Shown: positions 40,226-40,978 of the stretch, in pieces
Numbering within the stretch: position 1 is the stretch's first letter
How the letters are laid out: each line of letters begins with the position of its first letter
Assembly (NCBI RefSeq): GCF_017853185.1
Contig: NZ_JAFMJZ010000003.1
Span: 1 to 61,782, forward strand
DNA length: 61,782 nt
Direction of reading: 5' to 3'
Origin: Mycolicibacterium sp.
GTDB lineage: Bacteria; Actinomycetota; Actinomycetes; Mycobacteriales; Mycobacteriaceae
Program-made: the position numbers and the translations under genes
Notes under the pieces: generated by a model
What the model was told of the DNA's origin: nothing
The model's input: only the letters and a program-made list of their open reading frames with translations
Databases searched by the model: none

Positions 40226-40239
40226 TCGGCAAGACGGCA

Positions 40240-40269
40240 GGCGCCCGCGTGGATCACCACGCGGGCGCC
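40240..40269. terminator. Terminator between arfC and prrA
   Basis: A perfect 13-bp stem, GGCGCCCGCGTGG (40240-40252) and CCACGCGGGCGCC (40257-40269), loop ATCA, followed by TTTCGTTT on the plus strand. It closes arfABC and may serve the convergent prrA as well. It occupies the place where prrB would be expected. Confidence 0.88.
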
Positions 40270-40285
40270 TTTCGTTTGAAGACTG

Positions 40286-40978
40286 TTACTGCTGGCGCAG
40301 CACGAAGCCGACACCGCGCACGGTGTGCAGCAGCCGTGGGGCGCCGCCGGCTTCGAGCTTGCGGCGCAGGTATCCGATGAACACGTCCACGACGTTGGTG
40401 TCGGCGGCGAAGTCATAACCCCAGACCAGTTCGAGCAACTGCGCCCGGCTCAACACCGCGGTCTTGTGTTCGGCGAGGACCGCGAGGAGATCGAACTCGC
40501 GCTTGGTCAGGTCGACGTCGGCGCCGTTGACCCGGGCCCGCCGGCCGGGGATGTCGACCTCGAGTGGGCCCACCTGAATGGTCTCCGAGGAGAACGTCGC
40601 CACCGAACCTCGGCGGCGCAGCATGGCCTTGACCCGGGCCACCAGTTCGGCGAGAACGAACGGCTTCACCAGGTAGTCGTCGGCGCCTGCCTCCAGACCG
40701 GCCACCCGGTCGTCGACCGAACTACGGGCCGAGAGCACGCAGACCGGCACGTCGTTGTCCATCGCACGAAGGGCGGTCACCACGCTCACGCCGTCGAGCA
40801 CCGGCATGTTGATGTCGAGCACGATGGCGTCAGGGCGGGTCTCGGTCGCGCTGCGCAGCGCCTCGGCACCGTCGACAGCCGTGGAGACCTCGAATCCGGA
40901 GAGTCGCAGGCCACGTTCGAGTGAGGACAGCACGTCGGGGTCGTCGTCGACGACCAGCACGCGCAGCGAAGCGTCCAT
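40286..40978 (-). CDS. prrA: Response regulator PrrA (OmpR family)
   Basis: A 230-residue OmpR-type response regulator with a receiver domain (acidic pocket Asp11-13, phosphoacceptor Asp55 in VLDINMP, conserved Lys in DYLVKPF) and a winged-helix C-terminal domain (VDLTKREFDLLAVLAEHK, VVDVFIGYLRRKLE). It is nearly identical to PrrA of M. tuberculosis, an essential two-component regulator there. ATG 40978 is chosen; an ATG three codons upstream is possible. Unusually, no histidine kinase gene prrB follows; arfC and a terminator are directly downstream. It is divergent from an ABC exporter pair. Confidence 0.95.
   Translation of the reverse strand: MDASLRVLVVDDDPDVLSSLERGLRLSGFEVSTAVDGAEALRSATETRPDAIVLDINMPVLDGVSVVTALRAMDNDVPVCVLSARSSVDDRVAGLEAGADDYLVKPFVLAELVARVKAMLRRRGSVATFSSETIQVGPLEVDIPGRRARVNGADVDLTKREFDLLAVLAEHKTAVLSRAQLLELVWGYDFAADTNVVDVFIGYLRRKLEAGGAPRLLHTVRGVGFVLRQQ

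Follow-up and report, generated by a model that had tools for sequence, protein, structure and literature searches.

A Mycolicibacterium prrA without an adjoining prrB and an unlinked PrrB paralogue as its probable partner kinase

The closest described relatives of the locus considered here are the PrrA-PrrB two-component systems of M. tuberculosis (Rv0903c/Rv0902c) and M. smegmatis (MSMEG_5662/5663). According to one report, prrA is essential in M. tuberculosis and prrB is dispensable. The same text states that serine/threonine kinases phosphorylate PrrA at T6, that viability requires histidine-kinase phosphorylation at D61 and not phosphorylation at T6, and that a histidine kinase of some kind apparently phosphorylates PrrA when PrrB is lacking (PMC9371303). 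A second report finds prrA and prrB conserved in every fully sequenced mycobacterial genome on the basis of best BLAST hits in 150 species, ascribes two missing prrA genes and one missing prrB gene to incomplete sequences, describes PrrAB as a drug target and has cydAB expression repressed in a prrAB deletion (PMC6898941). The genus also has a second PrrAB-like pair, MSMEG_0244/0246 (PMC7516205), which is taken to be PrrA2-PrrB2, the two being equated through annotation and a haem-protein neighbour and not by sequence comparison. Compared to the M. tuberculosis and M. smegmatis systems, the genome studied here has a near-identical PrrA without an adjoining prrB. Its probable kinase is a paralogue of PrrB on another contig, with the DHp and catalytic core in common and a sensor that is about 39–40% identical; this paralogue is called beta, and the classical PrrB is called alpha. 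Among the papers listed, none describes beta, a second unlinked PrrB or the loss of prrB (alpha) in its title or abstract opening.

The window, meaning the whole stretch of 61,782 nucleotides that was analysed, belongs to contig C83 of a draft genome (G000) of 3.58 Mb in 287 contigs that is 91% complete. The features surrounding prrA are as follows.

37886..38248, plus strand: FKBP-type peptidyl-prolyl isomerase gene (FKBP_C), the next marker of the conserved neighbourhood
38370..39314, plus strand: arfA, with OmpA and BON-like domains (open reading frame, Pfam)
39324..39476, plus strand: arfB, 50 aa (by eye)
39476..40225, plus strand: arfC, 249 aa (open reading frame, without any Pfam family)
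40226..40285, no strand: convergent gap between arfC and prrA, 60 bp from stop to stop, the position of the alpha prrB in relatives (comparison with G232, G205, G281 and G233)
40239..40270, plus strand: terminator-like hairpin of 14 pairs with a 4-base loop and a T-rich tail (hairpin scan)
40286..40978, minus strand: prrA, an OmpR-type response regulator of 230 aa, orphan at this locus (open reading frame, Pfam, PDB match)
41043..42971, plus strand: ABC transporter 1, membrane and ATPase parts, divergent from prrA (open reading frame, Pfam)
42968..44779, plus strand: ABC transporter 2, membrane and ATPase parts (open reading frame, Pfam)

The names arfA, arfB and arfC are those that we presume for the genes 5' of the gap, arfC having also been named in the initial annotation. 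PrrA comprises a receiver and a winged-helix domain (Pfam Response_reg and Trans_reg_C) with the conserved acidic pocket of an OmpR/PhoB-type regulator. Residues 4–230 match M. tuberculosis PrrA (PDB: 1ys6, E 3e-133), and the identity to the listed orthologues of the genus is 89–98%. The initial annotation had proposed a near-identical PrrA, closely packed with arfC and a 13-bp terminator, in a window that encodes no histidine kinase, and this is borne out. The 230-aa reading frame is intact and the 60-bp gap does hold a hairpin; its stem has 14 pairs, the 13 bp noted earlier being the same stem minus the outer A-T pair. A scan of 40150–41100 found this one site against a shuffle mean of 0.3, and similar hairpins were seen by eye at the equivalent location in G415, G353 and G370. 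The kinase domains HisKA and HATPase_c, with 12 and 22 matches in the genome, respectively, have none on the entire contig C83, and a tblastn search around the window prrA with PrrB of both types, alpha and beta, gave no match at E ≤ 0.1. The locus thus lacks the prrB directly downstream of prrA that defines a PrrAB operon. In G232, G205, G281 and G233, the order is FKBP, arfA, arfC, prrB, prrA, ABC1, ABC2, with alpha prrB 7–8 bp from arfC (stop to stop) and 16–25 bp from prrA (to the start of the alignment). The window presents the same order minus prrB.

With a draft of 287 contigs, a mis-join at 40226–40285 might have dropped the alpha prrB from the assembly. This is barely credible since prrB-less loci are also present in assemblies that consist of just one or two contigs. 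An intact prrB is absent beside prrA at 24 loci in 24 genomes that were read, the window counted, and four of these (G012, G303, G285 and G305) are such assemblies; a mis-join was rejected on these grounds. In addition to the prrB-less junctions of G012, G303 and G285, the near relative G415, a separate assembly whose beta sensor is 91% identical to that of the window genome, has the same gene order and the similar hairpin. Comparison of synteny in relatives had been proposed with the initial annotation, and it reveals a junction that recurs in other genomes, G415 included, so that the absence of prrB beside prrA is more general than was first stated. Among these loci, the gap measures 1 to 163 bp where prrA faces arfC, FKBP or arfA, and 977 bp in G305; these differing lengths fit several separate deletions. 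A search for kinase remnants at E ≤ 0.1 found none at 21 of the 24 loci. The marginal matches in G012 and G415 are stray, 35 and 22 residues long and outside the gap. In the two-contig assembly of G305, fragments of an alpha prrB lie within the gap between arfA and prrA (L113 4678-5285), and its beta gene is intact (G305:C1:4305827-4307140).

A search of the window genome with the classical PrrB identified a single strong match, G000:C264:487-1797, at 58% identity over residues 4–442 (E 3.6e-145). As the second best of the 11 matches has an E of only 1e-29, the idea that this is a distant kinase found by chance was rejected. The gene is listed below.

Contig C264, 475-1833 (G000:C264:475-1833): PrrB beta, 452 aa, full length, with HisKA and HATPase_c

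Being full length with HisKA, HATPase_c and a PrrB-type helix, beta belongs to the PrrB family in the wide sense, and it is the only such kinase found in the genome. No alpha-type sensor was matched at E ≤ 1e-35 in this 91% complete assembly, where an alpha relocated to a missing stretch could have escaped the search, and no PrrA2-PrrB2-type pair was matched either. The initial annotation had anticipated that an orphan PrrA would need a kinase encoded elsewhere and had proposed a genome-wide search for PrrB. A candidate does exist on C264, and a prrB at another place in the genome is what that annotation had itself named as refuting it; the candidate is the paralogue, however, and not the classical prrB.

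A receiver-domain search of the window genome gave 21 matches, none of which is on C264. Of the genome's 12 HisKA kinases, ten are accompanied on their contig by a nearby receiver match (for C18, only a weak partial match at the contig end), leaving only beta on C264 and a kinase on C193, a 3-kb contig, without one. The regulators that have no HisKA kinase on their own contig are prrA and a few others, for example on C262 and C109.

The relationship of alpha to beta was considered by phylogeny and by region. In a tree of full-length kinases rooted on PrrB2 (n = 4), from which one duplicate row (L086) was dropped, beta (n = 35) has a support of 1.0 and alpha (n = 31) a support of 0.76. A tree of the sensor half separates them as well (0.999 for beta, 0.86 for alpha). 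In a tree of the core half, alpha and beta do not form separate clades, so the division is based on the full-length and sensor-half trees. Mean identity between alpha and unlinked beta is about 39–40% in the sensor, about 49–50% in the HAMP/linker region, 80–81% in the DHp and 74% in the catalytic domain; between alpha and PrrB2, the DHp is 55% identical. Pfam HAMP at E ≤ 1e-3 is matched in alpha and unmatched in beta, although the same stretch aligns at the identity given. The predicted structure of one beta kinase (L147) had a mean pLDDT of 67 and a pTM of 0.34 and plays no part in the argument. The best solved match of the beta catalytic domain is M. tuberculosis PrrB (PDB: 1ys3). The beta kinases adjacent to prrA in the G034 group were considered as chimeras of a beta sensor on an alpha core, since their cores are 80–91% identical to alpha versus 66–77% to beta in six windows. 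This is not claimed; these kinases fall with beta on the core-half tree (support 0.94), and slower evolution explains the alpha-like identity equally well.

The 21-residue helix at the phosphorylated histidine of beta is identical to that of some alpha kinases (e.g., G023) and is one or two letters off in most others. The same 21 letters have 7–12 matches in eight other kinases of the window genome, three more being not readable. In PrrB2, the partner of PrrA2, the helix differs at H+11, H+12, H+14 and H+15; positions H+7, H+11 and H+12 are presumably those that set specificity, as described for EnvZ-type kinases. PrrA2-PrrB2 is set apart by its docking helix as well as by having a regulator of its own, PrrA2, which is about 64% identical to PrrA. 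On the regulator side, five unclassified sequences were set aside and the receivers of 80 PrrAs (41 alpha-linked, 15 beta-linked and 24 orphan) were compared. Helix α1 and the β5-α5 region are nearly constant, whereas PrrA2 (n = 4) differs in the docking regions at several positions, for example 17, 20, 21 and 26. In the window PrrA, the acidic pocket and the docking residues are intact.

From these comparisons, it is probable that PrrA is served in trans by the unlinked beta, alpha being absent at the locus. The classical prrB would have been lost from between arfC and prrA, loss being assumed here over never having been present, and PrrA would have kept its receiver and docking face. With its different extracytoplasmic domain, beta would sense a signal of its own and phosphorylate PrrA in trans through the predicted docking helix that it retains, and the PrrA regulon may now answer to the beta signal. 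Elsewhere, beta and PrrA are neighbours, as beta stands directly behind prrA in 28 of the 47 good-quality genomes that lack alpha. That prrB is dispensable in M. tuberculosis yet a phosphorylated aspartate is needed, as given in PMC9371303, suggests that a kinase that is not a neighbour can serve PrrA.

The last observation cuts both ways. Because M. tuberculosis PrrA is apparently phosphorylated by some histidine kinase without PrrB (PMC9371303), beta need not be the donor, and PrrA might be driven by cross-talk from a kinase outside the PrrB family, most likely the one on C185, with beta serving another regulator or none. The C185 kinase is MprB-like by our own reading and not by a family call. 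It shares T, T and N at H+7, H+11 and H+12 with the PrrB helix, one-way transfer from PrrB to MprA in vitro is mentioned in PMC9765234, and beta could serve one of the other regulators whose contigs bear no HisKA kinase, such as those on C262 and C109. Cross-talk is nevertheless unlikely: the C185 kinase has an adjoining regulator of its own (38790-39464, 51% identical to PrrA), its helix matches only 12 of the 21 letters, and the retention of beta in all 47 of the 47 good-quality genomes without alpha would be left unexplained. Much less probable still is a PrrA free of histidine kinases and run by serine/threonine kinases or constitutively, a substitute that the initial annotation had suggested. 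Phosphorylation of T6 in M. tuberculosis, as stated in PMC9371303, would be its precedent, and the orphan PrrA of G305 does have a Thr at the aligned position. In the window, the N-terminal tail (40967-40978) has an Ala there, the position being derived from the D61 and T6 numbering of that report, and most other orphan PrrAs with the tail read have a Ser. For this Ala, and with D61 and not T6 being needed according to the same source, serine/threonine kinase control was rejected as a substitute for the kinase. An intact acidic pocket and docking face in a PrrA that is 89–98% identical to its listed orthologues, together with the retention of a full PrrB paralogue, also argue against it. Of note, only some of the genomes that were read have a Thr at the T6-aligned position.

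On C264, a Pyr_redox_2 gene and a luciferase-like oxidoreductase gene precede beta; the former is taken to be ndh, a name that follows the gene order in M. tuberculosis. As a speculation, this ndh-like neighbour could point to respiration or redox state as the signal. Orthologues of beta in G009, G004 and G159 have the same Pyr_redox-type gene upstream, and urease genes lie behind beta in all three, with UreD and urease alpha domains identified by Pfam in G009. An MHB-family haem-binding gene also lies upstream (by Pfam in G009, by cluster in G004 and G159), in likeness to MSMEG_0244/0246 (PMC7516205). MHB-type genes adjoin both beta (L092 5022-5387, located between beta and the ndh-like gene) and PrrA2/B2 (L082 7624-7983, by cluster only), a hint that the PrrB family is linked to haem or redox. 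In other genomes, beta is found at other loci.

The distribution of the two sensors was examined in 396 genomes of the genus with sensor-only queries at E ≤ 1e-35. The alpha sensor is present in 332/396 and the beta sensor in 324/396; among the 361 genomes of good quality (at least 90% complete and at most 5% contaminated), the counts are 314 and 296. By a comparison of genome lists made by hand, 249 of the 361 have both, 65 have alpha only, 47 have beta only and none has neither. Overall, 61 of the 64 alpha-less genomes (396 minus 332) have beta, and the three without it (G149, G311 and G383) are only 63–84% complete; in G329, counted among the 64, alpha is matched in a region other than the sensor. 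The association of alpha absence with beta presence has a one-sided Fisher p of 4e-5, a value not corrected for descent, and beta is common regardless, occurring in 249 of the 314 genomes with alpha. Besides the 28 of 47 alpha-less genomes with beta directly behind prrA, another 18, the window genome among them, have an orphan prrA with beta elsewhere, and all 18 loci were read. In the remaining one, G416, beta is present and PrrA is unmatched, which may be a gap in its 340 contigs.

Two side observations were made in this survey. In G221, one of the 28 and a single contig, the PrrA match at E ≤ 1e-75 beside the beta kinase spans only residues 8–150 (L255); this prrA may be a damaged gene or a sequence error. 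A public record titled Bifidobacterium breve, CAMCWJ010000022.1 (L164), shares 11.5 kb of identical sequence with the mycobacterial genome G134, and the title looks wrong.

On a tree of the locus (1668 columns, 45 genomes), counting that assumes losses and no gains of alpha, with G302 and G341 pruned beforehand, gives eight losses, or five to six when weak nodes are collapsed favourably. Five genomes of low completeness (G149, G302, G326, G341 and G392) were left unclassified. The alpha prrB of G195 (G195:C1:797381-798502) retains only residues 2–249 and 316–444, with most of the DHp missing, and its beta is intact; together with the fragments in G305, broken alpha genes in genomes with an intact beta look like alpha loss under way. 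Partial matches give alpha a damaged appearance in G009, G187 and G254 as well. All three bear beta, which could be chance given how many alpha genomes do.

The initial annotation regarded the arrangement as an essential two-component system that had, unusually, lost one of its halves. Essentiality holds for prrA in M. tuberculosis and not for prrB, according to PMC9371303, and alpha is absent from 47/361 genomes. Recurrent exchange of the sensor on a conserved regulator is most likely, rather than an unusual loss in one genome. Many-to-one signaling is familiar from the Bacillus phosphorelay, where several Kin kinases encoded at separate loci act on the one regulator Spo0F. PrrA is on balance somewhat better seen as a hub with two interchangeable sensors than as one member of a one-to-one pair, both sensors being kept in most mycobacteria and alpha alone in a minority, a state which we take to be that of the tubercle bacillus. 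The input to its conserved regulon would have been exchanged repeatedly, either through the loss of alpha or through the arrival of a kinase with a beta sensor next to prrA. The proposed hub shares with Kin/Spo0F the encoding of several sensors apart from one regulator; it differs in that the sensors are only two, are paralogues and have almost identical docking helices, and in that one of them is absent here.

The published universality of prrB among mycobacteria calls for separate treatment of alpha and beta. A best-hit rule, as described in PMC6898941, would take beta for prrB where alpha is missing, and universality would therefore hold only when alpha and beta are counted jointly. Should a second PrrA sensor be present in most species, studies or inhibitors directed at PrrB only may be bypassed outside the alpha-only species. 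If the reading is true, the stimulus of PrrA would be approachable by comparing two sensors that drive one regulator, and the mycobacteria would provide a natural and repeated example of a regulator that changes its sensor while the docking surface stays the same.
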